64,000 bases of DNA from Pempheris klunzingeri (lineage: Eukaryota > Chordata > Actinopteri > Acropomatiformes > Pempheridae): positions 1,477,001-1,541,000 of the forward strand of contig NC_092020.1 of NCBI RefSeq assembly GCF_042242105.1. The letters are read 5' to 3'. Both the position numbers and the translations under genes were made by a program. The notes beneath the pieces are model-generated. The model was not told the DNA's origin, did not search any database, and saw only the letters and a program-made list of their open reading frames with translations. Position 1 is the stretch's first letter. Every line of letters begins with the position of its first letter. Positions 7,031 to 43,256 of this stretch are shown here, in pieces.

Positions 7031-10000
7031 ATGGAGGGGTCTGACAGCTTAGAGCAGGGTGGCAGTGACCAGCCAGAGTCACAGCGCCGAAGGCAGCTGG
7101 ACCGTCTGGGCAGGGAGGAGGCCTTCTACCAGTTTGTCAACAATCTCAGTGATGAGGACTATCGTCTCATGAGAGATAACAATCTTTTGGGTACCCCAGG
7201 TAATCTAATCACACTAGTATTAAGTCTTGTGACAGTGATCTGTGATTATTGTATAATGTTAAGCAACTCAGATGGTCATGAGCTGTATTATAACAAAAAG
7301 TGGGGCAAGATATCAACACTCTGCACATCTCAGGTATTCAGAGTGAGGTAAGATGGTTGCATCACACAGATGTCTGTTTAAAAAGGCTCCAGCAATTACG
7401 CCAAGTAAGCATGAGTGCAACAATTAAATTCTTGTGTTAGATGCCTCACATCAGAAGTCTTCCAGTGGGCCGAATAAGTAGGCTACGGTGTCTGAAGAAA
7501 GTTGAGATTAAAAAGAGACATGTCTGGTCCAAAGACGTGAACATGCTTCTTTTTACTCCCATATGTTGTTGTGATGTGGTGTCACAGTAGTGTTTTATCT
7601 TTTGAATATTTGATTTTCAAATATTTTGATGGTGTTGATCATACTTCTAAGGTTCTGTTCAAAATAATTTTGATGATGGGTGCCTGCCCTTTGCAAACTT
7701 TTCAATCACATTTGGTTGATGATATCAACATTTTATTTTCTTTTGAGTTATTGGTAAAGTCTCTCTCCTCCTCCATCTTTTTACACGTCTCCTACCTGGC
7801 CAGTAGAACTAGAAGTTATAATAAAAGTTAGAGGGAGAGTTAGGATTATTTAAGATGGTGTTGTATGAGGCACTTATACATAGTCAGTGTATTACCTAGC
7901 TAAGCAATGTACTGCTGTAAATGAAGATGTATTTAAGCCACCTAAAAAAAAAATCAGTTGAAGTGTACTTTGTATATTCAGATTACTTTTATGATTTTAC
8001 ATTGTCGTCAGACAGCACTTTCCAACGGGAAAAATAAGCCTCTGTCTCTCTCTCTCTGCTGTCTTCAAAGACATTAGGTCTGATCTGATTTATCATTTAT
8101 TTAAAATATCACACAAGGTCACCATGTAAAGTCGCACAATAACAAATAAACAACTGATCAAGGCAGCAGTAGATTAGCAACTCTGTGTTGTGTTTTTTGG
8201 CTAAAATTTGGCGAGTTTTTCCTGGTGCCCCCATCCACATCAGTACACTGCTTAGCATCAGTGCCAGTAATCCTGTCTGCTATGAACACTTCCAAAATGG
8301 GGGCTACTGCAGTTACACTGGCTATGGACAAGTATTAGATACAACCCCACAAAAATCCGAACTATGCCTTTTTAGCTTAGCTAGTCTCCTCTAGTTATGG
8401 ATTTGTCACTATGTTGGAAATGCAAGCGCCTACGGACTACTGAAGACTCCCAATCCGTTTCTGTCCCAGGACAGTGGGAGGGGGAATGTAAGTTTGGAGC
8501 ATCCTTTAGCGGAGCACCCTGCAAGGAGAGGGCATTGAATGGACAGTGGCATGCCCTGGTAAGTCTGGAGGTTTTCAGTATTGTCCTGTTGCTCTGTGGG
8601 CTAATACAGTACAAACCAATTTCACCACTGATTTTCTTTCTGACACATGTACAGAATTTCTGCAACAGAACAATTTTTTATTTCCTTTTTCATTGTAATG
8701 TTCTGCCTGTCAGATATTTAGCTGTTACAGTGAGTCGCTCTGCCGACTTCTCCTCTTTCTATGCATTAAGTCAGAAAATGTTTTGTTCTTATTGTAGGGA
8801 GTTAAGCTTTCAAATCCTTCCAGACACCAATGAGCTTAACATTTAATAACCTTCAAGAAAGGATCACATGGATTGCCAAAAAGTAATTTCTCTTATAATA
8901 ACAGACTATGGTATTGTTTTCTAATGTCTCCTTCAGGAGAAGCAACAGAGGATGAGCTGTTTAGTAGACTTCAGCAAATCAAAGATGGTCCAGAACAGCA
9001 GAATAACACCCCCAGTACTGAAAGTGGAGAAGAACCAGTTGGTATGTTTGCCCTTTTTTGACGCTATAATTTACAGTGAAAATTAGAAACAGTTTGTCAC
9101 GTGTTAACTCGGCTGATTTTTCAGAACCACCGGAAAGCTCTGAGGATCCTGCCAGTGGGGACAGTCTCTTGGATTGGCTGAACACAGTGAGACGCACAGG
9201 CAACACAACCAGAACTGGTCATCGTGGAAACCAGTCATGGCGGGCCGTAAGCCAGACCAACCCAAACAGTGGGGATTTTCGCTTCAGCCTGGAAATCAGT
9301 GTGAACCGCAACCTGGCTGAGCAGCAAGCTGCTACTGAAGGGGAGCAGGAGTCCCCAGAGCAGTCCTCAGAGGTGTCTCCAGAGGCCCAAGAAGTGGTGG
9401 CAGCAAATGTTGAACCGCAGGTCCCCATGGAGACCGAAGTGATGGAGGAACCAGTTGTAGAGGAGTTAGCTGTCATTGTGGAACCGGAACCAGAACCGGA
9501 ACCAGAGCAGGAACCAGAGCCAGAGCCAGAGCCGGAGCCAGAGCCAGAGCCAGAGCCGGAGCCTGAATTAGAAGAGGTTGTTTCACAAGAGACAGCTGTC
9601 CAGCCCGTACAACCCCCACTTTCTCCTTCTCCACGCAGGGGACAAAGGAGAGCCCGCAGCCGCAGTCCAGAGCCACGCAGGACTAGGGCCCGCACAGCCA
9701 GGAGCCGCTCCCCTCTCAACTTGGATCAGCTGGATGGTCTTCCTAATCCACGTCATGCTTACATCTCTCAAGGTCCCAACTCTGCCACCAACGCTCCCCC
9801 TGTGCCTCAAGTAGAGGGCAGCTCTCGGACTCGACAACATGTTCTATCCAGGCAAAGCACTGTTGACAGTGATGTTCAACCATCTAGGGCTAGCGCAGAA
9901 CCAGTCCCAGAGGCCCAAAACGTTGCACCTCAGGAAGGAGAAGCTGCTGGGGGGGAAGGTGGAGCAACAGGGCGTCGTCCCCCTACTATTATGCTTGATC

Positions 10001-10845
10001 TCCAGGTGCGTCGTGTGCGTCCGGGCGAATATCGCCAAAGAGACAGCATTGCAAGTCGTACCCGCTCACGCTCCCAGAACTCAAACAACACATTTCTTTA
10101 TGAGAGTGAGCGTGGTGGTTTTCGTAGGACTTTCTCACGCTCTGAGCGTGCTGGTGTGAGGACCTACGTCAGTACAATTCGCATCCCTATCCGAAGAATC
10201 TCTGATGCAGGCTTGGGAGAGGCAACCTCAATGGCTCTCCAGTCTATGATTCGGCAGATTATGACTGGTTTTGGCGAACTCGGCTACCTCATGGATTCAG
10301 ACTCTGATTCTTCAGATTCAAACCGTGGAGCCAACACACCTGTGGATCTGGCTGAAGCCCTCAGCAACCCTGATGCTACTCCTGCTGCCACTCCTGCTGC
10401 TGATGTGGATGAACCACCTGTGGCTGCTGGAGTCAGGGCAAGGACAGCTGAGACTGATGTGGATGAGGGCCTTGCTGCTGGTCTGCCTGCCTCCGGTGGC
10501 AGAGCTCGACCTAGACCACCTATTAGCCTAGAGGAACCTAGCTCACTACCTTTCCTGCGGCTTGCTCACTTCTTCCTCCTAAATGATGATGATGAGGACC
10601 AGCCCCAAGGGCTGACCAAAGAGCAGATTGATAACCTCTCCATGCGTAACTTTGGTGAGAGTGATGCCTTGAAGACTTGCAGTGTCTGCATAACAGAGTA
10701 CGCAGAAGGTAACAAGCTGCGTAAGCTGCCCTGTTCTCATGAGTACCACGTGCACTGCATTGATCGCTGGCTGTCCGAAAACTCCACTTGCCCTATTTGC
10801 CGCAGGGCTGTCCTGGTATCGGCTAACCGAGAGAGTGTGGTGTAG
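7031..10845 (+). CDS. rlim: RING-H2 E3 ubiquitin ligase RLIM (RNF12)
   Basis: The coding sequence joins 7031-7199, 8937-9041 and 9125-10845 (664 aa); all junctions keep frame. RLIM is a nuclear ubiquitin ligase that acts on LIM-domain cofactors and, in mammals, REX1. The N-terminus carries the family block [12 protein letters not shown] at about residues 30-41. A central basic/RS-rich stretch includes [11 protein letters not shown] and [20 protein letters not shown]. The C-terminus is a RING-H2 finger (CSVC...CSHEYHVHC...CPIC) ending in the ESVV tail. The start is the first ATG of exon 2, followed directly by conserved sequence. An acidic Glu-Pro repeat (9481-9566) sits where mammals have other low-complexity sequence, and the mammalian Ser-rich tract is short. 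It looks intact. Confidence 0.97.
9481..9566 (+). repeat. rlim: In-frame Glu-Pro coding repeat in rlim
   Basis: GARCCN hexamers encode alternating Glu and Pro for about 28 residues, with a few Gln interruptions. It is likely to vary in length between fish. Long open frames on the opposite strand here are a by-product of this repeat. Confidence 0.9.
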
Positions 10846-13416: not shown

Positions 13417-14663
<1,247 letters not shown>

Positions 14664-18957: not shown

Positions 18958-21900
18958 TCATTGTAGCTGGGAGACCAGGGCCCTGCAGTCCCCCAGTCTA
19001 TCCAGATGCTCCACCACATCAATCAGCCTCTCAACCTTCTCTGAAGGAAGCACTGCCCCTGCGTTGTTTCTGAACTTCTTCCTCAGGCTCTCATTGCTCA
19101 GTGGGTTACGCCAGTGACCGTAGAAGGTGTCACAGCGTCCTTTCAGAATGTCGCCCCCAACAAGCGTCACCTGGACTTCGCCATACATGAGGTTGAAATT
19201 AGCCGGGTTGTCCTGCGGATGCTCCACGCGAACACGATTCAGCAGAGCATGCAGGTCAGAGCGCCTCATGGCAGCGGGTGTGAAGGACTGCACAGTCACC
19301 TCGCCATCCAGGAGAGCGCTGCAAGCATTGAACTGGAAGGAGTGGCGTGCCTCATGCTCTGAGTCAGGTAAAGGCCTGTTAATGTACTTTGATTTGGGGA
19401 CTCTGAGCAGGATGTCCTGGACTTGAGTTGGGGGGAAAGTGCCAGGGCCAAGCCCTACAAGAAGCTTATGGACTGAGGCTGCAGCATCTGCTACCCAGTG
19501 CATCCCCAGATGGGCAGGGAAGCGCTTGAAGCCCATGTCTTGCTCCTCTAGCAGGAACATATGGCCGTCATCACTGGGTGATTCTAAAGGCTGCGGGACA
19601 TAGTCTTCATAAAAAGCACTGAAGCCAGCCACCCCAGCCACAGCATCCAGGACCAGAGGACTTGCCTCTAAGCCTCGGGAGGCTAGCAGAGCGGCCTCCA
19701 AGCCCAGACGCGAGGCATTACCGATGTGGAGGGGTTTAGACTGAGTGGCAGCATTAGCCATTGGGGCTCCTGACAAAGAAGCAGCTATAGCCAAGGCATG
19801 ACTGCACTGGGAGGGATCCAGAGACAAGAGGCGAGCACAGGCGGCTGCACTACCCATGGTCCCCACCACACTGGGAGGGTGAAACCTGGTGACGAGAAAG
19901 ACGGAAAGAAAGAGACAAAGAGACCATGGTCAGGTGTTGTGGAACTACAGTGTTTACTCTTGTGTTTAAAGGAGCATTTAAAATGGGCGTTTGTCATCAT
20001 TATGGTTATAACAGAGCTCCTTATGTGTAAAAGTGTCTCTTTGAACAAACAGCTACTCTTAAGCATGCCTCTCTTTATGCAGTAGAGCTTATTTCAGCAG
20101 TGTGTGTTAGAGGAAATTGTTTTTTAGTCATTTCAGTATTTGATAAACAAGCAAATGATGTGGTGGGTCATTTGACTTAGTGTAAACACTTCCTAAAATG
20201 AGTCCTGTGTGATAGTCTCCTCCACATGGCTAATTGTGCTAACACTACCCACAGGGCCTCATCTGTGTCTGAGATTAACATAATAACATGCCTTTCACAG
20301 CTCATTGACACCACTATGAGACTGCAGATTACACTGCTCCGGCCTCCTTCTAAACCACACTGCACACATCAGCAAAGTCAAATATGGATCTCTTTAGACT
20401 CCTGTGGATACTTCTGTGGACAGTAAATAAAAACTCTTCAACAAGGAGCTGGCTTATATATCTGTTAAATGATAAATATTAAAATCAAATACAAAACCTA
20501 CTGCAATGCAGTTAAATTACAGTATCTACGTGAAATTTGACTGTGCTCTGTGGCCCTCACCTCTTGGGGATGTTGTGGGCCTCATTTGAGAACCTCATCA
20601 GTCGGCCCTGGATCTCGATGCCGACGTTGAATGCCAACAGGAAGTCCAGGCCGCTAGGTTTGCTGTTAGCAGGCATCATGTCACTGAGTGCTAACACAGC
20701 AGGGAGGACAGCTCCTGAGGGATGAGTGGCAGGGTGCCATGTATCATCAAAGTCCATAGAGTGTGTCTGCAATAAAAAAAAACGAAATAAATAAGTAAAA
20801 ACAAAAAGCCAACACATTTTCACAATCAAATGACTGTGAAAAAAAGTACATGGAGTTACTTTAACACTGAGAGCAACTCAGTGATTATCAATACATATTT
20901 TATGAAGCACAGAAATATTATGTTCTTGCTGGCAGCAATTCACAGCACTAATTCACAGATAAAGGAGATGGGTGCAGAGAGCTGCAATTTTGCTCTCTAC
21001 ACCCATCTCCTTTCTTAGCAAATTGGAAAATCCCTTTAATTGCTATAATTGGCTTTCACCACTGGAGGGAAATGTGGGCTGCAGAAATGAGCTTGACATC
21101 CTGATGCCTTCTTTAGGGAACGAGGGCTGCGAAATGTTTGCAGAAATACTTTTGGAAAATTCTGCAGAAGGGTAATGAGGGGTCAATTTATTATTTGCGT
21201 CAACCCTCCTGTGGTTGGCTGCCCACATGGTACCAGTGCTGAGTATAAAATAGCAGTATTTTGGTTGTGGAAATGGGTTCAGTGCATCTGAAATTGTCTG
21301 GTGTACTGCTGCACAATGGTGACCCATCTGTTCCACCTATTCATACTCACCGCCACTCCATTGACAAAAGCTGCCAGTGTTGGTGAGAGCCTTGTGCCCC
21401 TGCGTCCGTACACAGAGCTGATGTCATCAGCAGCATACATGTGCTGGAGGGAAAAGACGGAGACAGGTAAACAGAGAGTCTTCACAAGGACGTGTTTGTA
21501 ACACAGCAGTCGTCACATAAGTGAACTTTACCACTCCTGGCATATCACTTTTCAGCTGAAGCTGAATAACGTTCTTTGTGAGTTGTATGTCAAACACAGA
21601 AATTCAGTGAAAAAGGTCACCAGATATATCAAATTATATGATGAAAATTCAGTAATAACCTGTGATTTTTTTTTTTTACTCATCTCATCTGTCCTCACAC
21701 AGCTGTTGCACTCATCTGTTTCATTGCCTCATATCAGATAAGACCTTAAGACCTTTTTTCCCCCCCTGCCCCTCACCTGGCAGTGCTGCAGCGCCAGTTC
21801 AAACACGTCTGTTGTGCTGCCAAGCAGACCAACTCCAATGCTGTCCAGCACCATCCTTTTGCTGCGATGGAGCACCATGGAGGACAAGTGCTGGGGCTTT

Positions 21901-22679
21901 ACTTCACTGATGAACTTCCCGTAGCTGGCCGTGACTGTGTCGTCCGCGGCAGGGCCCTTCAACACTGCAGAAGGAAAGACAGAGGAATGCAGTGAGTAGA
22001 AAGAAAGCACATGAGCTGTTTGTAACAGCGGAAGCAGAGAGAAATGTTTTCTTGTGTTTGGACAAGAGGAGGAGGAGACAAGTTTACCTTCCACTGCAGA
22101 CTTATGCAGCCCCCTCACAGCCCATACTGGTCTAATGGTTTTCTGTAGAACAAAGAGTATAGAATATCATTATTAACACCTATAAATTGAGTAACATTTA
22201 TTTTATTTCTATGAAATAGATTTTTTTCCCCACATCTTAGCTCCCTTACACACTGTGTACAACATGATTTTCCTCTTTTGTCAGATTCTGTTCTAATTAA
22301 ATCCTCCTTGTAGCCGACTCTGACATCACTATAAGGAATGTTACTTAGCCTCGTTGTGCCTCGTTTCAAAGAGCTATTGTTCAGCCAAGGTGATGCTTTT
22401 ACAGGTGTAGTGTCATCTGCTCAATTTCTCATAAAGCGCTCTCTTAAATGAACTCTCACTATGTACTCATGAAAGCCATCTACACAGTACAAACCACAAT
22501 GTAAGTTTAGGGATTTGTGTTAAATTCTTCACAAGACTGGATGAAGTCAAACAGTTTGAAGCATTCCCAGAGTGATATTTTCCCTTTAATTCCTTTTTTT
22601 TAATCTATTAATCTGACAGATTAAAAAAAGTAGGCCTACAAAAGTATCTTTAAATCTTTACCTTTAATGTAGAGATCAT
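18958..22679 (-). CDS. acod1: Cis-aconitate decarboxylase (ACOD1/IRG1)
   Basis: Six exons read on the minus strand (22679-22662, 22142-22088, 21964-21777, 21443-21351, 20766-20561, 19885-18958), all in frame, give 495 aa. The enzyme decarboxylates cis-aconitate to itaconate in mitochondria of activated macrophages. MmgE/PrpD-family landmarks match ACOD1: HSMDFDDTWHPATHPSG, KPLHIGNA, KRFPAHL, SEHEARHSFQF and DTFYGHWRNPLS. These cover the active-site Asp and His segments. The first exons encode a basic, acid-free leader (MISTLKKTIRPVWAVRGLHK) typical of a mitochondrial targeting signal, longer than the short N-terminus of human ACOD1. The C-terminus stops soon after CRALVSQLQ, without the extra human tail. 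The gene is transcribed away from gene A, with a TATA box about 115 bp upstream of the ATG. Confidence 0.97.
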
Positions 22680-22794
22680 GGCTTCTGTCAGTTCTGTCAC
22701 GTTGCTCCTCTTTCCTCTTTCTTTGATGCAGTAGGTTTGGAGTCAGCAGGTTGTGAAGGATGTTGATACCTTTTGGACTGAGAGAGCACCAGCC

Positions 22795-22801
22795 TTATAT
22801 A
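22795..22801 (-). promoter_or_regulatory. acod1: TATA box of acod1
   Basis: TATATAA on the minus strand, inside ACTATATAAGG. It is placed to start transcription near 22770, leaving a 5' UTR of about 90 bases before the ATG at 22679. A strong TATA box suits an inducible gene. Confidence 0.75.
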
Positions 22802-23105
22802 GTCCAGGGTTCACAATAGTAGCAGGTACAGGCCTACAAGGAACAGGGAAGGGCAGGAATATCCATGACGAAACCTTGTAAGAGTAAATTGAGGAATTTT
22901 CATTATCATTATTGTCATCACCAGCATCACCATCCCCAGAAGAACAGAAAGAAGGGGTGGTACTTCATTGTTCAAGGTTAGGAGCAGCAGTGATGTCATC
23001 TCTCAGGTTTCACTCTGTAGTATAGTGTGGGGGAATTTTCAAGAACTCCTCCTACGCCTACCACTCCAGCCTTATTTATGACCACATTTCATCCCTCCTT
23101 AACTC
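22802..23105. promoter_or_regulatory. Shared upstream region between acod1 and gene A
   Basis: About 300 bp lie between the acod1 TATA box and a TATTTAT box (about 23072-23078) for gene A. An NF-kB-like site, GGGAATTTTC, lies at about 23030-23039, one base from the GGGRNWYYCC consensus. Two head-to-head TATA promoters this close could share enhancers. The motif calls are by eye. Confidence 0.5.
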
Positions 23106-23933
23106 AACTCAACAGTCCATCTGAGCTTCTTCGCCAGGTAAGGCTTTATTTTCATTTGCTTCATTACTGGCAAGCACTATGACTTTATTACAGGCACTCT
23201 TCAATGTGATTCAAAATGTATTGATGGTGATAAGATGCTTTTCACAAAAATATCTATAGTTAACTTGCAAGATGCTCCATGGCAGAACAAAACATATTAC
23301 AGTTTAATGTTATTTATGAGATTTACAACAAATACCAAAATTACAACTCTGAAAATATGTAACTGGCAAAATCAAAAACAGTACTGATCTCTTGGATGAA
23401 TAAGTCTATATCAGTCTATATCAGTCAGTTATGGATAAAATGTGGGCACCTGCTATTTTCCAGTTGTTAGATCAGGAAAGTTGAATACAGCTACTCCCCT
23501 GTGTCTCGTGCTACTGTCACACAATAACAGTGGTTTAGCCCACTTATGACTGGGCAGGGCCATCGACTCAGGTTCCTGAAAGTGCCCAGGGAGATACAGT
23601 TAGACAGAAAATAGTTTTTTTTGCATATTATATTAATAGTATATTAATGTTCCTTAAAGGTTTTATCATTTATAATTAGTTTCCTTTTTTGTAGGCCTCT
23701 CCTGCTCTATAAAAATCAAATAGAGGGTATTAAGGCCATTTTGCACCTTGTGGTCACCCTATGTGGGTTTTTAAGAGTCAAGTTGTGCCTCCCAACGACA
23801 AATGACCTCTCATTCTGGTTCTGCACATTATACCAAATTCATGGAAAGATTTAAATACCTTCATGGACATGTTCTCTGTGTCATTTGTTTGTTTGTTTCA
23901 GTGAAACTGCAGTTTGACACTAAACACGACACA

Positions 23934-26900
23934 ATGGCAACATCAGACAGGTTTCCAGCCAGTTTCTATGGTGAACCTGGAGTGTTAGGCATGTTATCAA
24001 ATGGAATCAGTGCGTTCCTCGTACTTCTACAGAACTTCAATACAGCACACACTGGCAAAGCACCACTCGGAGTGGAGAACATACTTGCAGGTACAACTTT
24101 TAGAAGATCTGCCTGAAGAATGTAATAAAAGGTAATATAGAGTTGTTTTAGTAATTTCAATTTCATATTTTTCTAGGTGTTCATCTCATCCTGATTGGTG
24201 GTGTATGCCAACTAGTGGCCGGGCTGCTTTCCTTTAGGAAATATGATCATCTGAGTGGCACTGCCTTCATTGGCTATGCTGCTCTTTGGGGCAGTTATGG
24301 TGCCACCCGAATATATGTTGGTGCCTTAGCTGAAACAGTTGCCATGCCACATCAGATGATGATGAACAACATATCTCTGAATGCCACCACAGAGATCCCA
24401 GTTTGCCATTTATGTCTGTCCATAAATGAGTCAGCGATTGCCGGTCTGGTCCCCTACATCCTTCTGTCCTTTGTTCTTGCCTTCTGCTCTGCCACAGTCA
24501 ACTACATCATGCCTTTTGTTTTTGGGGCCATCACAGCCACCTTAGTTTTTGAAGCAGTGGGTTTGGTAGCAAGCTCCTGGGCTCTCGTGGTCTCAGGGGT
24601 TCTGGAGTTGCTCATTCTGATTTTTGCCATCTACGGTTCAGCTGCACTGCTCGTCAAAGGTCTGACCCAACGTTTAGTCCTCAGAGGCTTCGGTACCCCC
24701 CTCTTTAATGTTCTCCTGTTAGGGACCACCAACTCAGGAAGCACCCAGAGCATTGGCCAAGAGAAGAAGAAAAATACGAAATATGCAGAGCCCATGGCCT
24801 TGGGTTTCTTCTGTGACACTGTTGCCCCCTTCATCTTTGCTTTCTACAGCTTTGGGTACATGAAGTCCTTTGGCCTAGGGGCTGCATGGATCTCAATCAT
24901 CACAGTTGCTCAGCTGCTCTCCAGCTACTACGCCTATTTGCGCCAAGATTGCTACCACACCACCAAGTTTGGTCTTCATGCCACATATTGGTTGATTAAA
25001 GCCTGGGATGAGTTTGTCGTATCTGCTCTGGTTGTAGAGGATGTGGTGTCAGGGAGGGAAATAATGATCGGAAATTGGTTCTTTGTGATAGCAGGCTTGG
25101 TGCTCTGCGTGGGAAGCCTCAATACAGATGTGCTGGAGCTGATCCACAACATACTGTTTGTCCTACTAACAGTCTCCACAATCCCCCAGATCCCTCTCCG
25201 GGGATACTACATCTTCTTTGGCGTAGCTTGCTCCCTGTTCACTGCTGCCTCCCTGTACGGCACCTTCTCACGTCTTATCAACACCATAGCAGAGAAGTTG
25301 CTAATCCCCGTAGGACCGCAGCCCGTGTCCACCGACCAGATGATGAAGGTTTTTAAATACAGCAGGTCCAAGCAGGGAGACCAGGAGGCGCTGCCCCAAA
25401 CTGACCAGGCTTCAGATGCCCTGTTCTACCTTTCAAATGGGGTTGCAGCTCTCTCAGCTCTTCATGCAAGTTCTTCCAGTACAAATCCTGCCTTCCTTCA
25501 TCTGACTGTCCCTTGGGTCCTCGTCTCTGGAGTCATCATCCAGGTCTATGTCAGTCGGCTACAGGTCATAGGAGGTGGCCGTTTTGGGTCTGTCATCTCA
25601 TCCATCTATGTTGCAGTTTGGGCAACATGGACCTGGTTTAGATTTGCAGGTATGTCAGTACAAACATGTTTAAATGGACACTTGTTTTGGCTGAATTACA
25701 CAAAATTCTGATCCCAGCTTTTTCTCCTCCAGGTAATCTGCTCCAGCTTTCCATAGCAGCAGCCAATGGTTTCACAGCAGGAGCCATTGCTCTCTTGGTC
25801 ATCAATGCTTTCCTTATACTGATTGGTAAGGTTAACAAGAGTATTGTTCTTAGGAGAATGAATGAATTTGTTTGATTTTGAGCTTGTTTTCATTCTTCCA
25901 TTATTCATGTCAGCTGCCTATAGGAACCTGGTTTTGCTGTTGCTAACAGCAGTCATGGAGGTTGTTCTGGTCTGTTTCCTGCTTTCCACTCTGCAGCAAC
26001 TGCCATATGAACTAGAAAGTAAGCACTCATTCTGAAAATTTGTTTAGGGTTTAGGTAATGCACTTTTTTTTAATAGGCTTAAATTATTATTATTATTGAA
26101 ACATTGTGGCATTTTCTTAACAGTGGCAATGCTTGCAATACTTTCAACAATTTGCTTATATGGAGCTCTGGCGTCACTGGTGAACTGCATCTACTCACAG
26201 AGGCTGATGCCCATAGGTCCTCCCTTGATAAAGGTAACCAATTAAGAAAATCATTTTGCATTCCTCTGCCAAATCTATAGTGGTTTGTTATATTCTATCC
26301 TCTTGATTGTTATGAAAATGCCCCTCCCTCTGTGGCCTGTCTCAGGAGGAAGTGAAGCAGGAGTCTGTTCTAGAGCTACCCTGTCCTGTGGCTGATTCAC
26401 GACTCACCAGTGGTCTCCTGAAGATCGCCCACCTGCTGGAGGAAGGAGGAGTATGTGGCATTCCCACAGACACTGTATATGCCCTGGCTGCCTCCTGCAA
26501 GAATCCTCAAGCTATAGAGAAAATCTACAATATTAAAGTAAGAAGTGAAAAATAACCTGGAGCATCTGAGCCAGATTATTTAATCCAATTGCAGCATTTT
26601 ATCTTTATTGTGAAACTCACTTATCTGTGACCTCATCCAGGACAGACCAGCGGAGAAGCCCATCTGTATCTGCATTTCTAGTGTGGAGCAGCTGGTGGCA
26701 GCCAAGCCTCCCTTCAGTCCTTTGCTGTGGGAGTTTATGAAGAATGTGTATCCAGGAGGCATCAGCTGCATTGTCAGCAAAGGAGACTGGCTGTTCAAAC
26801 TAGGTAAACTAGGTTTATAGTTCACAACTTTAAATCCTGTGCTACTGCATTCAGTTTATGTCAGTTTCAGCTTATTTTTTTCTGTAGGAGTGGGACCGGC

Positions 26901-27435
26901 TTACGATCGTGTTGGCACCAGGGACAGCATCATGATCCGCGTCCCTGACCACACTGTGACCGGGCACCTATGTGACATCACTGGACCCCTCGCTATAACA
27001 TCAGCCAACCCCAGCGGAGAGCCAGACAGCACCCATCACAGCATGGTCATCAAGTAAGTGTCATAGCAGTGCGACAAATGTGTCTTTTATTTTCAATTAT
27101 CCCAGTGTTAATGCTAATGTGGCACATGCATCACACATCTCCTGCCATCTGTTTTACCACAGGCGACTAGGACACAAGATTCAAGGGGTTCTGTGTGATG
27201 GGGACTCAAATGAAGTTGTTGCTTCCACCGTGGTCAACTGCCTGAAAATTGATGAAGGTAAAGGGCAAAAATATTCCCATTACACTCTCTAAATTTCATA
27301 TATTTTAGCAGACACTTTCTAACTCAAGTGTGTCATACTCTCTCCACAGGGATCATCACCATCGTGAGGGAAGGCTGTGTCCCTGCAGTAAAAGTCCGAC
27401 AGATCTTTGACAGAGTGAAAAGCACTATGGTGTGA
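23934..27435 (+). CDS. Gene A: triple AceTr membrane protein fused to YrdC/Sua5 domain
   Basis: Coding exons are 23934-24090, 24177-25649, 25733-25825, 25914-26018, 26124-26233, 26346-26537, 26641-26803, 26888-27053, 27163-27257 and 27350-27435, all in frame (879 aa). A non-coding exon ends at 23137. Residues 1-646 are almost all membrane segments and read as three AceTr (GPR1/FUN34/YaaH) units, about 14-232, 255-437 and 462-646. Units 1 and 2 open with NPAPLG-like motifs (EPGVLG, EPMALG). Unit 1 continues GVCQLVAGLLSFRK, as in E. coli SatP (GIAQIFAGLLEYKK). Units end in similar RGFGTP, IPVGPQP and MPIGPP motifs. Residues 647-879 form a whole YrdC domain: IPTDTVYALAA, KDRP (the KxR signature), ITSANPSGE, STVVNC and IVREGCVPA. 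NNIS and NAT in a loop could be glycosylated. Known AceTr proteins carry acetate or succinate; YrdC proteins make threonylcarbamoyl-AMP. The fusion's function is unknown to me. Confidence 0.9.
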
Positions 27436-27857: not shown

Positions 27858-28574
27858 TTCACTGATGTTGTGTAACACTTGTGTCCTAAAAACAAATATA
27901 TAGAGTGATACAATTATTACAACTTCACATATGTTTTAGAGCATTTCTGCCTGTATTCAATAGTTCATAATTAAGATGTGACAAGAAACAAGAGGGGAAA
28001 GAAAGGAGGAAAATAAGATGCAATAAAGATCCCCAGATGGAGTAAAACCAGGGACACAGTGATCAGAACACAGCATGCTTGTCAACCAACAGTTGATTTA
28101 TTGATTTAGAATTTACAATGAAGAAACTATTTGTTTTTTAACTGATGCATTAAGGATACAAAGTTAATTTACATTTACAACATTTATAAAGAATACTTTT
28201 TAAAAACACAGAATGCTGAAAATTAAAACCAGTGTCCAAAATGCAGTCTAACAGTTAACTGAAGAATTAACAAAGCAAGTCAAGAGAAAATGTGGTGCAC
28301 ACACACAGAAAGTGATGGGGAAAGGTCTTTGCATGCATGTGATAATACATACATACAAGGCATTGCTCTAAACACTCTGAACTTAGACATACAGCAATGT
28401 GACTTAACCCAAACTCACACTGTCAATGAAAAAATAATTTATTGAAGCCACTTGAGCGGCTCTGCGAAGCTGTATTTAGGCACAGCAGTCACAGCTAGCA
28501 TGTGTGTAACATGGTTTCAAATCAGTTTTCATTTATTATGAAGCCATATTATTATGAAGCTTTATCTCTTATAA
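27858..28574. other. Intergenic, no gene seen
   Basis: About 0.7 kb of AT-rich sequence between gene A and the LINE. No open frame with splice support and no recognised repeat. Confidence 0.5.
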
Positions 28575-31500
28575 GCAGAGCTGCAGTCTTACACACTTCT
28601 CTGCTCCTCCATTAGAACAGTCACCCACCCAACATCCCATAGAGACTGTGTCTGTCCCCCGACCACTCAGACCATTTAGATCTATTAAGTCCAACAGGAG
28701 AGGAGTTCAGCCTAAACATTTAATCAGAGTTAATACCACTGGCACAATGAAACAGGACAGGAGAGTGAAATGTGGACTTTTAAACATCAGATCTCTGCCA
28801 TCCAAAGCTGTTTTAGTAAATGATCTGATATCTGACCATGAAATTGATTTATTGTGTCTGACAGAAACCTGGCTACGTCCTGAGGAGTATGTTTGCCTTA
28901 ATGAGGCCACTCCTCCCAGTCATACTAATACTCACATTCCCAGAGATTCTGGACGAGGATGCGGAGTTGCAGCAATCTTTAACTCTAGTTTAATAGTCCA
29001 ACCTAGACCTCCTTTGAAAGCCTTGTTCTTAGTTTTTCACACCCAACCTGGAAAACTCTAAAACCAGTGTTGGTTGTCACAGTGTACCGCCCTCCTGGTC
29101 CAGACTCTGAATTCTTAACTGAGTTTTCAGAGTTTTTATCAGATTTAGTCCTCAGTGTGGACAAAGTGATTATAGTAGGTGACTTTAATATTCATGTGGA
29201 CAATGAAAATGATCACTTTTGGACTCAATTGGCTTCTCCCAGAGTGTAAATGAACCAACTCACTGTTTTAACCACACTCTTGACCTTGTTTTGGCTTATG
29301 GTGTTGAAACTGAACAGTTAAGAGTCTTTCCACATAACTCTATTTTATCAGACCATTACCTGATAACATTTGATTTCTTGCTTACTTCCTTACAGGACTA
29401 TGCTCTATATGACAGAGAGGTCCTCACTAGATCCTTATCTGATAGTGCTGTTGTGTGTCTCTGTGCTGTGGATGACCCCCATGTTAATCTCAGCCCCTCC
29501 CAAATTGATTATCTGGTCGATAGTGCTGCAGGTTCACTGCGAATGACACTAGACTCTATTGTCCCTCTAAAAAAGAAGAGAATTAAAGAGAAGAGACAAG
29601 CTTCCTGGTATAACTCCCAGACACGCAAGCTTAAGCAACACTCACGAAAACTAGAAAGGACATGGCGGGCCACCAAAGAGGAAGAATCCTGTTTAATCGG
29701 GCAACATAGTCTTAAAACCTATAAAAAGGCCCTCTGTAATGCCAGAGCCGCCTACTACTCCTCATTGATAATGAAAATAAAAGCAACCCTAGATTCCTTT
29801 TCAGCACAATAGCTAGGCTGACAAGGAGCCAGAACTCTATTGATCCTTGTGTTCCCTTAGAGCTCAGCAGTAACGACTTCATGAGCTTCTTTAATGATAA
29901 AATTCTAACTATTAGGGACAAAATTCAGCACCTCCTGCCCTCAACAGGGTCTGGTCCAACCTCAAACCTAGGAACCATAGAAACAGCTGTTAGACCTGAT
30001 GTGTACTTGGACTGTTTTTCTCCAATTGATCTTGCTGAATTGGCCTCAATAATCTCCTCATCTAGATCGTCAACATGTCTCCTAGACCCCATTCCTACTG
30101 GACTCCTTAAAGAGGTCCTGCCCCTAATTAACACGTCCTTACTGGATATGACACATCAGTCTTTACTAACAGGCTATGTACCACAGTCCTTTAAAGTAGC
30201 AGTAATTAAACCTCTCCTGAAAAAGCCTACTCTTGATTCAGGTGTGTTAGCTAACTATAGACCTATATCCAACCTTCCCTTTCTCTCCAAGATCCTGGAG
30301 AAAGTCGTAGCTAATCAGCTGTGTAATTTTCTGAATTGTAATAGTCTATTTGAGGATTTTCAGTCAGGTTTTAGAGCGAACCACAGCACAGAGACACTGG
30401 TGAAGGTTACAAACCTCCTCCTTATGGCATCAGACAGAGGACTTCTCTCTGTCCTGGTCTTGTTAGATCTGAGTGCTGCTTTCGACACCATCGACCATCA
30501 CATCCTGTTACAGAGGCTGGAACAGTTCATTGGTATAAAAGGAACTGCATTAAGCTGGTTTAAGTCCTATTTATTAGATCAATTTCAGTTTGTACATATT
30601 AATAACGAATCCTCTGTCCACACTAAGGTTAGACATGGAGTTCCACAAGGCTCAGTGCTTGGACCAATACTCTTCATCTTATATATGCTTCCTCTGGGTA
30701 ATATTATCAGGAAGCACTCCATTAATCTCCACTGTTATGCAGATGATACACAATTATATTAATCAATAAAGCCAGATGAACACAATCAGTTAACTAAACT
30801 TCAAATCTGCCTTAAGGACATAAAGTCCTGGATGAGCAGCAACTTTCTGCTGCTAAATTCAGATAAAACTGAAGTTATTCTGCTCGGCCCCAGACACCTC
30901 AGAGACAGCTTTTCTACTACCATAACTGTTCTGGACGGCATTAATCTGGCCTCCAGCTCCACTGTGAGGAATCTGGGAGTCTTATTTGATCAGGATTTGT
31001 CCTTTTAACATTAAACAGATTTCTAGAACTGCCTTTTTCCATCTACGTAATATTGCCAAAATCAGGCCCATCATATCCACAGACGATGCAGAAAAATTGG
31101 TCCATGCATTTGTCACTTCTAGGTTGGACTATTGTAACTCATTATTATCAGGCTGCCCCAATAAATCGTTAAAGACTCTCCAGCTGGTCCAGAACGCTGC
31201 TGCTCGTGTTCTGATGAGAACTAAAAGAAGAGACCATATTTCTCCTGTACTGGCTTCTCTTCATTGGCTTCCAGTAAAATCTAGAATAGAGTTTAAAATC
31301 CTTCTCCTCACCTACAAGGCTCTTAAGGGTCAGGCCCCATCATATCTTAAAGAGCTCATAGTACCGTACTACCCCACTAGAGCACTGCGCTCCCAGACTG
31401 CAGGTCTACTGGTGGTTCCTAAAGTCCTCTAAAGTAGTGATGGAGCCAGAGCTTTCAGCTATCAGGCTCCTCTCCTGTGGAACCTCCTTCCAGTTTGGGT

Positions 31501-31850
31501 TCGGGGGGGCAGACACCCTCTCTACATTTAAGAGTAGACTAAAAACCTTCCTTTTTGACAAGGCATATATTTAAGGGCTGGCTCAGGCCTTAGACCAGCC
31601 CCTAGTTATGCTGCTATAGGCTCAGACTGCCGGGGGACTCCCATGATGCACTGAGCTCCTCTATTCTCTATCCTCCTCTTCCTCTCCATCGTTATGTCTC
31701 ATGTCAGCCAAATGTCTGCCTCTAACTTGCTGTCTTCCCCGGAGCCTTTCTGTGCTTTCTCATCTCTCAGGTTCCTGTGGATCCTGGTCCAGGTCCTGCT
31801 GATGTGGTTCTCCATCAGCCAATGGATGTGCGTCTGTCCTCAAGGGTAAG
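28575..31850 (+). mobile_element. L2/CR1-clade (Maui-like) LINE, broken
   Basis: An almost full coding region of a non-LTR retrotransposon in the + direction. The endonuclease part is seen at 28760-29270 ([40 protein letters not shown]). The reverse transcriptase follows at 29881-30960 ([47 protein letters not shown] and the catalytic YADDTQLY). The C-terminal part is at 30990-31440 (RLDYCNSLLSGCPNKSL, LHWLPVKSRIEFK). The frame changes at least four times and one stop follows YADDTQLY, so it cannot make the protein. The fairly clean motifs suggest moderate age. No target-site duplication or 3' tail was recognised, and the ends are approximate. Confidence 0.9.
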
Positions 31851-36500: not shown

Positions 36501-37328
36501 CTATGACCCATTTCTAAGGACTGGATCTTGTTCAGGTGTTGAGCTTCCAGTTTCTCTTCCTGACTGTGCAGTGCCGACAAGCACATCATATTCAAAAGCA
36601 GGATTGATCTGCCCCTGTCTGTGCCGCTTCTGAACCTCCTCGAAGATTTGAAGAACCTTTTAAGCACACAAATGAAAGCAGCAGAAATTAGTGTTTGCAT
36701 AATCTAAGGTGAACTTGCTTATTCAGAACAAATAGAACAAGAGGGGACACTTCTATTACCTTAGATTTAGGAATGAGACCCACTCTGAAGAAACCAATAT
36801 GCCCCGTTTCAATCTTAGTGCAGTCAACCACAGTAGATGCAATGTTCTCTGGGGAGGGTCCATCACATAACACTCCCTCCACCTAATCAAGCAAAATGCA
36901 CATGTTGTTCACTGCAAAAAACAAATACACCAGTGCCTTTTGAGTATAATAACACTGAAATATCCTCACCTTGTCGCCCAGCTTGGCGTAAACTTGGTTG
37001 TGGTGAGTTGTGTCTGCCTCGCCTGTAGGGTTGGCTGAGGTTACAGCAATGGGCCCCACCTGCAAGAAAAAAGGTTGTTATATTTACTAAAGGGCCTGCT
37101 GATTAGTTTCACTCACTTTAAGACACGTGGTGATTCATTTCCACAGCCACTTACCAGATTAATGAGGTGTGTGGCCACAGAGCAGTCTGGGTTTCTGATA
37201 GCAATACTTTGCGGAGTCCCTATGTGCTTGGCAGCATCTCCTAAACCGAATGTGTCCATCCAGAGGCCTGTGTGAGACGAGAAGCCCCGAAGATGCTCAT
37301 TAAACCCTCAGTAAGCAGCATAAGGCAC

Positions 37329-37368
<40 letters not shown>

Positions 37369-40364
37369 ACACACACACACATACACAATGCAAGGCATGC
37401 AATACAATTATGCATTCACAAACACACGCCTACCTCTGGGTATAACCATGCTAATGGAGGAGGGCCACGCAGCCTCCATGAAGTCCAGGAGCAGAGGGCT
37501 CAGCAGGTGTCGCACCGGCTCCAGCTGCTTGATGGAAGAGATCCACAGAGACATGGGTCGGTCCTGCGCCTGCTTCTTCACCCTGAAGTCAAGCACAGCA
37601 ATTAAAAAGTAATGAGATTGAATCAACAAATGAATGCCGACAAGGGCAGACTCATGAAAATGGAAACTCACTTGTAAGCTTTGACAACTGCGTCAGGCCT
37701 GTTGCAAGCAGCCACCAGCACATAGACTGTGTCAGTAGGCATTCCAACTATGCCACCATTTTTCATGATTTCTGCAGATGGAAGAGGCAGGATAAATAAG
37801 ACTGTCATCGAGTATGTAAACAACTGCGTGTTTTGTTTAAATGAACATTGATTCCTTCTAACCTGCAATCTGCTGGACAGATGTGGCCTTGCGAGCTGGA
37901 ACATGTGGACACATATCTGCGCCTCCCCCCACCCCTTTCAGCTTAATTAAAGGTTTTCCTAGAGGGATCTGGGGGGACTGGAAGGTGTTATTGAAAATGT
38001 GGGCCAGGAAACAATAAAAACTGACGAGACCAAAGATGATGGTGACTCCTATGTCATAACCATACGGCAGTGCACCTACTGCATCTAACAGGAAGCTAAT
38101 GAGGATGAGCTGGAAGGTGAGAGCGTAGGCAAACCAGGCAACATTTAGAAACAGGGCTGAAGCGGTCACTAAACTGTTAAACAACATGAAGCCAATGATC
38201 CCGACGGCCACGTTGAAACTTCTGGTTTCCCCGTACAGGCCGCCGTATCGCGTCAACCCCCACACTGTCCACATCACCCCATAGAGAACAAAAACTGTGC
38301 TCTCAAAGGTTTTACCTCGAGCAAAAGCCACTGAACCGCAGAGCAGCTGGAGAGCCCCTCCAGCCGCCACCACCCAGGGCAGAACCAGCACAAACAGAGG
38401 GTGTCTGTCACCACCTGTGGCTGTGATGGCAAAAGCAGCAAGCACATTGCAGGCGTGGCCCAACACCTCCGCATCTGCATACTTCGAGGAGCCCAGGTGA
38501 GGCGCGTGTAGCTCTTTATCATGGGCTCTTAAGGTAAGACCCCGCGCCCTGGTTACTAAAGCCTTGACATAGCCCCGCCCTGTGGGAATCATTGTAGTGG
38601 AGACCATATTGAATGTGGTGATTAAAAGCATACAGGCAGAGATTACAAATATAGCTCCCTGTACACCCTGCGTGCCTCCCTGGAAGAAGCCTTGAGGCTG
38701 GGCTGCAATGGCAATACAATAAGCTGCATAGAATAACTGGTAGAGCCCCTCCAGCAAGCTCTTCTGACAACTGAACAGAGCCAGGATGGAGAAAAGCACA
38801 GAGAAGACAATGGGGAGGGGAACAGCGGTGAAGGGCTGAATCAAGTAGAATGATAGCAGAGCGCTGTAGCCCTCTGCAAATTTCAGCAGAGCAGTTAAGC
38901 CGTAAAAAGTGGCAGCTAGTGTGTCCATGGCTCGGTAGAGGAGGACACACACGCCAAGCTGGAAGACTCCAGCTGTCCACAGCCAGGGGACGTGGCCGGT
39001 GGAGAGCTGGGGGACCACACCTAACAGAGGACAAGCTAACACAGAGGCGGACAGCAAGTTCATCACCAGACCTACTGACACTGCACCACTACCCCCCTCG
39101 TTCTGCTCTGTTTTCACCTCAGGTTTTCTCTTCAGGCCCGTTCCTTGAGGCTCCACTTTACCATGAGTGATGGTGGACAATAGACGTCCAAAACCAAAGT
39201 ACACACACACCAGACTGACAAGGAGATAGTTAGCAGCCGTGGCAGACTGACCAAAACCTGCAGCAGACAAACCAGCGATCTGATGGGCACATGCTAAACT
39301 AATGCCTACAGCTATTAGAAAAATAACTGTTTTCTTTACTGTGACTGCTACACTGCCTATGATGAGCAGGGCTAAGGTAAATGCTGCCAGGCCCGGGACC
39401 AGAGAGGATCTCAGCTCTGTGAGCTGCAGTATCCCCTGTCCCACCAGGATGTACACCAGACCAGAACCACACCACAGGGCGGACACAGTCAGACACAGAG
39501 AGGAAAACAGCCGGGCGTGGGTCAGACTGTGGCAAATACCTGGGAGACGAGGAGTAAAGAGGACAGAAGGACCAGTCAGAGGATTTACACATGGACACAG
39601 ATCAACCAAAACTACAAATGAATGACTTCAATAAAACTTGCAATAAGCATTCATCAAAAATAACCTGCATATGCTAAGAGGGCTGCAATGATGAGGAGCA
39701 CAATCCCCAGTGCAGTATGGGGAATGAAGTCCTTTTCAGGTGAGCTGGCATAGTTGTTCACCAAGAGCAGGAGAGAACCTTTAAGTCAAAAAACAAGCAA
39801 ACAAAAAACATTATCTACATCCACCTGGTACAAAAAAACAAGAAACTTACACAGGAGTTTGTTTTTAATTAGTAGTATTATTAACATTTAGACTAAAAAA
39901 GAAGCTATTTTGTCTCTAAAGGTAGAGCAAATGCCAGCCTACAAATATGACTTAGAAGTTTCCCTGTTTTAATTTCCTCACATGATTTACACTGCTAATC
40001 ATTAATTCAATAAAAACATCAGGCACAGTGTTGAGAATGGAATCGACTTCTGGGCAGTAAACTCTTTTTTAGGTTTTAATTTTAGTGTCTGCAGCTTTAA
40101 AGTTAAACAACGTGCTTCACAAAATGTGATACCATCGTGTCACTTTATTGTCAGTTTATGTTTTGAATTAGAATGACATAACAGTATAATAAAATAGTTG
40201 TTTTCTATGATAAGTGGTGGCCCACTCCTTTTTCAGCACATTTATGATAATAAGTGATAATAACAATAATTTGTTAACACGTAAAAATCGTAAACAGTTG
40301 AAAACTTACCGCCAGAGATGCTCAGTATGCCGACGGACATGTGAGGGGAGCGGGGCTGAGCCAT
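36501..40364 (-). CDS. Gene B: paralogous AceTr-like membrane protein fused to YrdC domain
   Basis: Nine exons on the minus strand (40364-40310, 39778-39665, 39539-37863, 37771-37672, 37582-37434, 37267-37155, 37059-36970, 36882-36760, 36656-36501) join in frame to 858 aa. Residues 1 to about 600 are hydrophobic and align in order with gene A's three AceTr-like units. Unit 2 begins AVSVGLVMNLL; units 2 and 3 end TMIPTGRGY and IPLGKPLIK, the last almost as in A (MPIGPPLIK). The C-terminal YrdC domain keeps MPTDTVYVLVAA, VTSANPTGEADTTHH, GVLCDG and STVVDCTKIE. The KxR site reads AQDRP with extra residues before it, so synthase activity is doubtful. A polar tail of about 40 residues ends RNGS. 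Introns differ from A: one exon covers most of the membrane part, and a B-only intron splits the domain before VGPIAV. A minus-strand AATAAA near 36139 may end the transcript. Confidence 0.88.
37332..37384. repeat. (CA)n microsatellite in gene B intron
   Basis: About 26 dinucleotides with two ATA interruptions, inside the intron between coding exons 5 and 6 of gene B. Confidence 0.9.
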
Positions 40365-42083: not shown

Positions 42084-43256
42084 CAACAGTAAAGCAAGTG
42101 AAGTGCAGATATCGTGTCACTCGAGGCTAATATTTTATTTATGCTTTCTTTACTTGATATATTTTTTTCCACATCTTAATTCCAAAGTTCATTGCTCTTC
42201 GAAAGGGTGTACTTGCATTACTATGCTATTATATGATCACTATATCAGTGGTGCAAAATGGTCTTAACACAACAATAATGTAGTTTATTGCAATTACTTC
42301 TGGGACAATATATTGCCCGACAAAAGTAGTTATCGTGATCACGGTAACTATTCGCAGCTTTCAAACCTACATTTCTATCTATTTCTTAAGCAGCACAAAA
42401 ACAATGTCATCAACTTGGCCCACTAGTCACAGTTGGCCTCTCTAACACAATCCCACAATCCTCAGCTACAGAGGTGGATCCGATATATAAGGTTTTACGA
42501 GCTAGTGTTTCATTTCAGGTGGAGATGTTTGCTCCAAATGCAGATCAGATGCATGTTGTAAACCACTGTGAGGGGAAACCTACAGAGGAGAAAAGAAACA
42601 TCCTGCAGGAGAGTGCCCGCATCGCCAGGGGTGATGTGACCGATCTGGCCAAGTTGGACGTTTCAGCATTTGATGCCGTCATCATCCCAGGTTAGGCTGG
42701 CCGAGCCGTAAATAAATAATCTGCTTTTTCCAAATCCACTTTATTTACATGCTTAACTGTGTGTTCTCATCCAGGGGGCTTCGGTGTGGCTAAGAACCTG
42801 AGCGACTGGGCAGTGAAGAATAAAGACTTCACCATCCAGCCACAAGTAGAGAAGCTCCTCAAGGCTTTCCACAAAGCCGGAAAGCCGCTGGGCATGTGCT
42901 GCATCTCCCCCATCCTCGTTGCAAAGATCGTGCCTGGCTGTGAGCTCACTCTGGGACAGGACAAAGAGTGTGAAAAGTGTGTGAAATAGTTTGTCATCTT
43001 CAGATGTTAGATATAAAATATCTCAATCTACGGTCCTAACTTTCCCTCCCTGTTCGTCTGTAGGTGGCCGTACGCTCAGACAGCAGGTGCTGTGAAGGAG
43101 ATGGGCTGCAAACACGTCAACACGGATGTGGAGAAAGCACACGTGGATGCCAAAAATAAGCTGGTCTCTACCTGTGCATTCATGTGCAATGCTCCCATTC
43201 ATAAAGTCTTTGATGGGATAGGAGTCATGGTTAAAGAGACACTGAAACTGGCTTAA
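41531..43256 (+). CDS. ES1/GATD3-family protein (DJ-1/PfpI superfamily), no targeting leader
   Basis: Four coding exons (41531-41638, 42519-42690, 42775-42976, 43064-43256) join in frame to 224 aa. The sequence follows GATD3/ES1 and bacterial ElbB closely: [81 protein letters not shown] and KWPYAQTAG. The nucleophile-elbow Cys is present in GMCCISP. Human GATD3 is mitochondrial and has an N-terminal leader; here the first Met is only two residues before the core (MVKRVAV) and the upstream exon is non-coding, so a cytosolic product is expected (inference). Exon 4 uses the donor AAAA|GTGTGT, chosen because it restores the KWPYA frame. The biochemical role of the family is poorly known. AATAAA at 43393-43398 ends the transcript. 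The gene is divergent with gene B. Confidence 0.93.
42037..42082. repeat. (CA)n microsatellite
   Basis: About 22 CA units in the first coding intron of the ES1-like gene. Confidence 0.95.

Follow-up and report, generated by a model that had tools for sequence, protein, structure and literature searches.

Gene A, which occupies positions 23934-27435 on the forward strand of a 64,000-nucleotide stretch of the Pempheris klunzingeri genome (assembly GCF_042242105.1, contig NC_092020.1, positions 1,477,001 to 1,541,000; hereafter, the window), is a real, intact and conserved ray-finned-fish gene that encodes three tandem AceTr/SatP-like units of six helices each, followed by a C-terminal TsaC-type YrdC domain. 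A second fusion of this kind, gene B, lies beyond gene A in the window, and acod1, the gene for cis-aconitate decarboxylase, which synthesises itaconate, lies on the other side. We propose, with a probability of roughly 0.35, that the products of genes A and B pair to carry itaconate or a related carboxylate, A bearing a working domain of the threonylcarbamoyl-AMP (TC-AMP) synthase type and B a pseudoenzyme with a regulatory part.

The fusion architecture, of which the first-pass annotation of this DNA knew no description, was read correctly there but is already known, having been published in 2026. Thus, the available text of PMC13316224 (Ghasemi et al., iScience, 22 June 2026) describes vertebrate ATOs of approximately 900 amino acids that contain three Gpr1/Fun34/YaaH units of six helices and a C-terminal Sua5/YciO/YrdC domain, fall into two vertebrate clades and occur in all major vertebrate lineages except mammals. 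Gene A agrees with this description in length and domain order (879 amino acids, 18 helices in the model of an orthologue, PF01300 at residues 676-860), and the two published clades correspond, we infer, to A and B. The same text proposes that two chains assemble into a SatP-like ring of six units and calls the mechanistic implications of the fusion unclear, while its discussion makes a suggestion similar to that of the first-pass annotation, namely a coupling of carboxylate transport or sensing to adenylate formation. The main text of PMC13316224 uses none of the terms itaconate, acod1, irg1, zebrafish or synteny, and the available portion does not mention the loss of a tetrad Arg in one clade, described below for gene B.

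Gene A and its membrane units

Gene A consists of 10 exons separated by nine GT-AG introns (coding exons 23934-24090, 24177-25649, 25733-25825, 25914-26018, 26124-26233, 26346-26537, 26641-26803, 26888-27053, 27163-27257 and 27350-27435, forward strand) and ends in a TGA stop codon at 27433-27435; each of the five remaining frames of the spliced coding sequence contains 26-57 stops. Judged by the names of its best matches, gene A belongs to the si:ch211-153b23.3 clade of orthologues. Protein searches retrieved 335 relatives of gene A and 441 of gene B, and counts of listed A or B sequences given here refer to the best 120 of each. Among the matches listed, the relatives were ray-finned fish wherever named, including sturgeon, gar, bowfin and teleosts for A and gar, bowfin and teleosts for B, and the alignments of 111 of the 120 listed homologues of gene A, with representatives of all four groups, covered at least 94% of the query. 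Bacterial contamination was ruled out by the nine introns and by the presence of close relatives in many fish. The best match listed for gene A was from Siniperca (89%), and no P. klunzingeri gene A protein was noted among the matches listed; more than one A or B protein per species was seen among them, for example, A in Toxotes, Melanotaenia, Mugil and Acnodon.

The membrane part of the protein comprises unit 1 (23934-24703, forward strand; residues 1-228, exons 1-2), with the N-terminal motif EPGVLG and GYAALW in transmembrane helix 3 (TM3), unit 2 (24788-25339, forward strand; residues 257-440), with the motif EPMALG and HATYW in TM3, and unit 3 (25415-26233, forward strand; residues 466-646, exons 2-5). 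In agreement with the first-pass count of about 18 hydrophobic segments in three repeats, the model of the Siniperca orthologue contains 18 helices, arranged as a SatP fold of six helices per unit. Unit 1 searched alone matched PF01184 (AceTr) at 30.5 bits, above the cut-off of 25, whereas the whole protein scored 20.2, below the cut-off; full-length gene B scored 27.0, above the cut-off, on its unit 3. Units 2 and 3 of gene A searched alone against Pfam gave no PF01184 match. Thus, the assignment of all three repeats to AceTr, for which the first-pass annotation had named PF01184 as the check, holds by that profile for unit 1, while units 2 and 3 are recognisable solely by profile-profile or fold comparison.

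Alignment by hhalign of units 1, 2 and 3 of gene A with a SatP profile (E. coli SatP and 80 enterobacterial relatives) gave E-values of 0.0021, 0.0079 and 0.0074 over 164-176 columns, compared with 0.38, 0.35 and 0.49 for the reversed units, at probabilities of 2-5% (2% for unit 2). Between units, hhalign probabilities were 90.7% for A2-A3, 99.5% for A3-B3 and 42% for A1-B3, and nothing was found for A1-A2, A1-A3, A1-B1, A2-B2, B1-B3 or B2-B3, nor for B1 or B2 against SatP. A probable common origin of all units is carried by the modelled fold, not by direct unit-to-unit profile comparison; in the fold searches, units 1 and 2 were always run together. The ends of unit 2 (IPVG) and unit 3 (MPIG) resemble the SatP end LPIG. 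A Pfam match of unit 3 to BAG6 (E 0.009-0.057, below the cut-off) was judged to be due to chance.

Differences from known transporters were evident at the predicted pore. SatP/YaaH (E. coli, Citrobacter koseri) and yeast Ato1 are single units without an enzyme domain, in which NPAPLGL is intact and Phe is present at the constriction, whereas gene A has three units joined to YrdC, reads EPGVLGM, EPMALGF and DALFY in place of the exact NPAPLGL motif in units 1, 2 and 3, respectively, and carries Asn23, Asp266 and Asn473 at the place of the constriction Phe (111/112, 119/119 and 119/119 sequences, gaps excluded; register of unit 3 taken from the next Gly). For SatP, the residue numbers F17, Y72 and L131 were matched to the aligned chain; no paper on these residues was found in the open-licence PMC literature. 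Because both NPAPLGL and the Phe of FLY are changed, gene A is filed as a vertebrate ATO related to AceTr rather than as a classical AceTr transporter.

The signature Tyr of SatP is retained in unit 1 as Tyr86 (112/113) and in unit 3 as Tyr530 (118/119), while a profile alignment of low probability places His320 (120/120) at this position in unit 2. An Arg occurs in TM3, 11 residues past the signature Tyr, in units 1 and 3 of gene A (R97 in 110/113 and R541 in 117/119) and in unit 3 of gene B (R487 in 119/120), gaps being excluded from these counts as from those for Tyr; SatP has Leu83 at the corresponding position, as indicated by alignment for the former and by equal spacing for the latter. 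Together, a gate of polar residues and a buried base would favour a dicarboxylate, for example itaconate, in these two units of gene A; unit 2 does not fit. TM3 of unit 2 (residues 320-331, window positions 24977-25012 approximately) contains His320, Trp324 and Trp329, all invariant, as well as Lys327 and Glu331, which are almost so, and differs from TM3 of units 1 and 3 as if unit 2 had a job of its own. In the profile alignment, the signature Tyr and Trp of unit 2 correspond to His320 and Trp324 rather than to Tyr323 and Lys327, and Lys327 has no part in the argument.

The TM3-TM4 loop of unit 1 (24317-24436, forward strand; residues 100-139) contains many N-glycosylation sequons. Of 121 sequences, 2 were dropped as too short in this loop, and at least one N-x-S/T sequon was present in 119 of the 119 scored, gene A included, and at least two in 115. 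The mean number of sequons was 3.21 in this loop as opposed to 1.16 after shuffling; elsewhere, in the stretches tested, which covered part of the remaining loops, means were 0.00-0.30 for A and 0.00-0.08 for B. Taken together with the 18 helices, the sequon-rich loop suggests that the protein is in the secretory pathway with its N-terminus and YrdC domain in the cytosol, and a mitochondrial location, as in the name of some records ('YrdC domain-containing protein, mitochondrial'), is disfavoured on the same grounds.

YrdC domains of genes A and B

The YrdC/TsaC-type domain of gene A (26397-27432, forward strand; residues 664-879, exons 6-10) was identified by PF01300 (E=9.3e-37) and passed the cut-off of TIGR00057, the TC-AMP synthase equivalog (127.5 compared with 123.2). 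Its tetrad, K710, R712, S803 and N805, is complete, and KRSN was found in 119 of the 120 listed A sequences, the remaining one having a gap at K. The first-pass reading, in which three AceTr-like units precede a YrdC domain that retains the PTDTVY, KxR and SAN motifs, is correct. Thr802, present in all 120 listed sequences, immediately precedes SxN, which is presumably where the signature Thr of TsaC sits. In the available texts, the KxR/SxN tetrad is a hallmark of TsaC/Sua5 (PMC10321239, PMC9654439) and part of a family filter (PMC10321239), and Thr138/Pro143 is a signature for TsaC (PMC10321239). Gene A is of the TsaC type rather than Sua5, in that the Thr signature is present, there is no SUA5 domain and the protein stops at residue 879 after YrdC. 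The fold, PTDTVY, the tetrad and the Thr before SxN are common to gene A and TsaC/Sua5/YRDC (PF01300); the fusions differ from these proteins in that A is tied to 18 membrane helices without a SUA5 domain and B is without the tetrad Arg. In the HypF and TobZ carbamoyltransferases, as described in available parts of PMC10321239 and PMC9654439, YrdC is fused to Kae1-like domains, as opposed to a transporter in gene A.

Gene B (36501-40364, reverse strand; exons 40364-40310, 39778-39665, 39539-37863, 37771-37672, 37582-37434, 37267-37155, 37059-36970, 36882-36760 and 36656-36501) is the si:ch211-153b23.4 orthologue and lies approximately 9 kb past gene A in tail-to-tail orientation. Its product of 858 amino acids is identical (100%, full length) to a deposited P. 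klunzingeri protein, and the record of one relative is named 'grp1_Fun34_YaaH and SUA5 domain-containing protein'. KxR reads KKQ in gene B, and in the listed B sequences the position of the tetrad Arg is occupied by Q (114), H (3; gar, bowfin and eel), K (1), A (1) or E (1) and by R in 0 of 120. Mean pairwise identity among listed sequences was 0.909 for the YrdC domain of B compared with 0.745-0.814 for its units, and 0.876 compared with 0.744-0.795 for A. As YrdC is the most conserved region of B, this domain is under constraint rather than decaying, and the pattern is what would be expected of a pseudoenzyme that has been kept.

The acod1 neighbourhood and co-expression with irg1l

The acod1/irg1l gene (18958-22679, reverse strand) was identified by Pfam MmgE_PrpD and by a match to ACOD1 in PDB (2.3e-96), with tblastn blocks within 18961-22148; its first short exon (ATG near 22677-22679) was placed by eye from the N-termini of relatives. 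The divergent region between the start codons of acod1, as so inferred, and gene A (22680-23933) is 1254 bp in length, and what is probably a noncoding 5' exon of gene A, also seen by eye, ends near 23137. A scan of this gap for seven motifs revealed no NF-kB site and no interferon-stimulated response element (ISRE). Sites found compared with those expected were 3 and 0.4 for CRE/ATF-like, 6 and 0.8 for STAT-like (palindromes counted on both strands), 1 and 0.8 for C/EBP and 4 and 2.9 for TATA; since seven motifs were tried, no weight is given to the CRE/ATF- or STAT-like excess.

Linkage of acod1 to the fusion genes was seen well beyond P. klunzingeri. All 29 fish species that allowed a comparison had acod1 and A or B together on one contig, as judged from an identical size of the longest contig per protein cluster, not from gene maps; of the 45 species with acod1, 16 had no A or B entry for comparison. 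By pairs, the same contig was noted for acod1 and A in 18/19, acod1 and B in 24/24 and A and B in 37/40 cases, and the exceptions (Scophthalmus, Amia and Astyanax) may be due to different assemblies. The smallest shared contig was 2.7 Mb (Genypterus). In Channa striata, acod1, A and B have consecutive locus tags (Q5P01_009123 for acod1, _009124 for A and _009125 for B), as do acod1 and A in Zoarces (VZT92_023257 for acod1 and 023256 for A). Among the open-licence PMC papers examined, PMC13316224 alone describes the fusion, and no published mention of acod1 as its genomic neighbour was found; likewise, the tracking of irg1l described below, the loss of the tetrad Arg in the B clade and the conserved sequon loop of A were not found in print. 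What deserves a second look is the acod1 module together with the loss of the tetrad Arg in B, neither of which appears in the first-pass annotation.

Of the three zebrafish genes si:ch211-153b23.3,.4 and.5 (hereafter,.3,.4 and.5), the first two belong to the fusion family by database names, and we take.5 to be a member as well. In a reanalysis of a table from PMC8877790, the rows of which are 54 genes picked by its authors as altered, the correlation with irg1l over 18 exposures was 0.90 for.4, 0.88 for.3 and 0.86 for.5 (ranks 2, 4 and 5), compared with a median of -0.07 across all 54 genes. In the available parts of other reports, irg1l,.4 and.5 are adjacent in a top-50 infection heat map (PMC6980646), irg1l,.3 and.5 are hubs in a single network module (PMC11140123) and irg1l,.4 and.5 are within the top five upregulated genes in one exposure (PMC9228135). 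In a stim2 knockout paper (PMC11489432),.3 appears and irg1 is absent from the text available, and.5 appears alone in the available passage of a stickleback methylation paper (PMC7083608).

Other features of the window were also noted. Open frames that by eye resemble an endonuclease and a reverse transcriptase of LINE type (YADDTQLY) occupy 28558-31574, between genes A and B. A large open frame at 9070-10845 has a C-terminal RING-H2 finger (PF13639, E 8.5e-14) and is by eye a relative of RLIM/RNF12; a fragment at 14190-14663 matched glyoxalase weakly (PF00903, E 0.009, short of the cut-off) and is perhaps from a glod5-type gene. Open frames at 42390-42989 appeared ES1/DJ-1-like by eye, and the single piece searched gave no Pfam match.

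A proposed paired carboxylate carrier and its alternatives

In the mechanism that we propose, A and B would constitute one carboxylate-transport system that is induced together with acod1. Glycosylation of the unit 1 loop would place this system in the plasma membrane or an endosome/phagosome membrane, leaving YrdC on the cytosolic side. Two three-unit chains would assemble into a SatP-like ring of six units, as published for dimers and extended here to A-B pairing. The cargo would be itaconate or, failing that, acetate or succinate, most likely moved with protons. The YrdC domain of A would form an adenylate from ATP and bicarbonate, and threonine as well if the ancestral reaction is kept, while that of B would bind ligand without turnover and thereby regulate.

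Several points weigh against this proposal. AceTr members are known to carry acetate, succinate and related acids, and itaconate is our own addition to these. No function, substrate, transport or enzyme activity was found in the literature covered for any vertebrate member. As neither the exact NPAPLGL motif nor the FLY Phe is retained in gene A, the pore may work differently or have lost its function. Unit 2 has Glu331 (119/120, by the low-probability profile alignment) at the place of the Arg in units 1 and 3, and with His320 instead of Tyr, the argument from a basic residue fails for this unit. The linkage data depend on contig sizes and locus tags, and in Siganus acod1, A and B share a contig size while their tag numbers are far apart. 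In zebrafish, sult5a1 (r 0.91, rank 1) and si:ch211-207n23.2 (r 0.90, rank 3) track irg1l equally well, so co-expression may mark just inflammation. Mammals have ACOD1. Their lack of the ATO family, as reported in the available text of PMC13316224, thus indicates that itaconate can be made and used without it.

The chief competing explanation, a tenable one that we nonetheless consider only possible, is an ordinary carrier of short-chain acids (acetate, lactate or succinate, possibly of gut microbial origin) with a tethered YrdC, where proximity to acod1 would reflect shared inflammatory promoters and not substrate. Such a carrier would be in keeping with fungal and bacterial AceTr members, which carry acetate and related acids (available text of PMC13316224), and with the tracking of irg1l by sult5a1 and si:ch211-207n23.2, but linkage to acod1 in all comparable species together with the adjacent divergent start exceeds what inflammation alone predicts, and the TM3 Arg conserved in two units of A (1 and 3) and in the third unit of B also speaks against it. 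Alternatively, YrdC in A and B alike might be a non-catalytic sensor of ATP, bicarbonate/CO2 or an amino acid that gates the transporter. High constraint on a B domain without Arg is consistent with this idea, as is the CO2 sensitivity of mitochondrial N6-threonylcarbamoyladenosine (t6A) made by YRDC (available part of PMC5951830); pure sensing, however, needs none of the four tetrad residues that A keeps in 119 of 120 listed sequences, and we regard the sensor as unlikely. Also unlikely, in our view, is an additional, membrane-bound supply of TC-AMP by which tRNA t6A is raised during immune activation, with the membrane part mainly an anchor. Soluble YRDC serves t6A in vertebrates, several pore-motif positions remain conserved, and TC-AMP supply does not explain why the YrdC of B is the best conserved region in a clade that lacks the Arg in 120 of 120 listed sequences. 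That gene A is a gene-model artefact merging two separate genes, as might be thought from the intron between membrane and YrdC parts, which falls exactly at residue 646/647, was rejected as next to impossible given the conservation of full-length homologues from sturgeon to teleosts and the independent description of the same fusion in the available text of PMC13316224.

A broader form of the itaconate-carrier proposal, about which we are doubtful, is that acod1, A and B make up an ancient innate-immunity module of fish, in which a mixed A-B ring of six units would carry itaconate, or a proton together with itaconate, through the plasma membrane or the membrane of the phagosome toward engulfed microbes. 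Flux would be set by the active YrdC of A and by an ATP/bicarbonate-sensing pseudoenzyme in B, and mammals would have lost a dedicated itaconate carrier.

The location of acod1 next to gene A suggests a role in fish immunity, itaconate being an antimicrobial metabolite. Linkage to acod1, co-expression and the pairing of a putatively catalytic with a pseudoenzyme domain turn an orphan architecture into one that is directly testable in zebrafish. If itaconate is indeed the cargo, these genes would show how non-mammalian vertebrates deliver an antimicrobial acid and would raise the question of why mammals could do without them.

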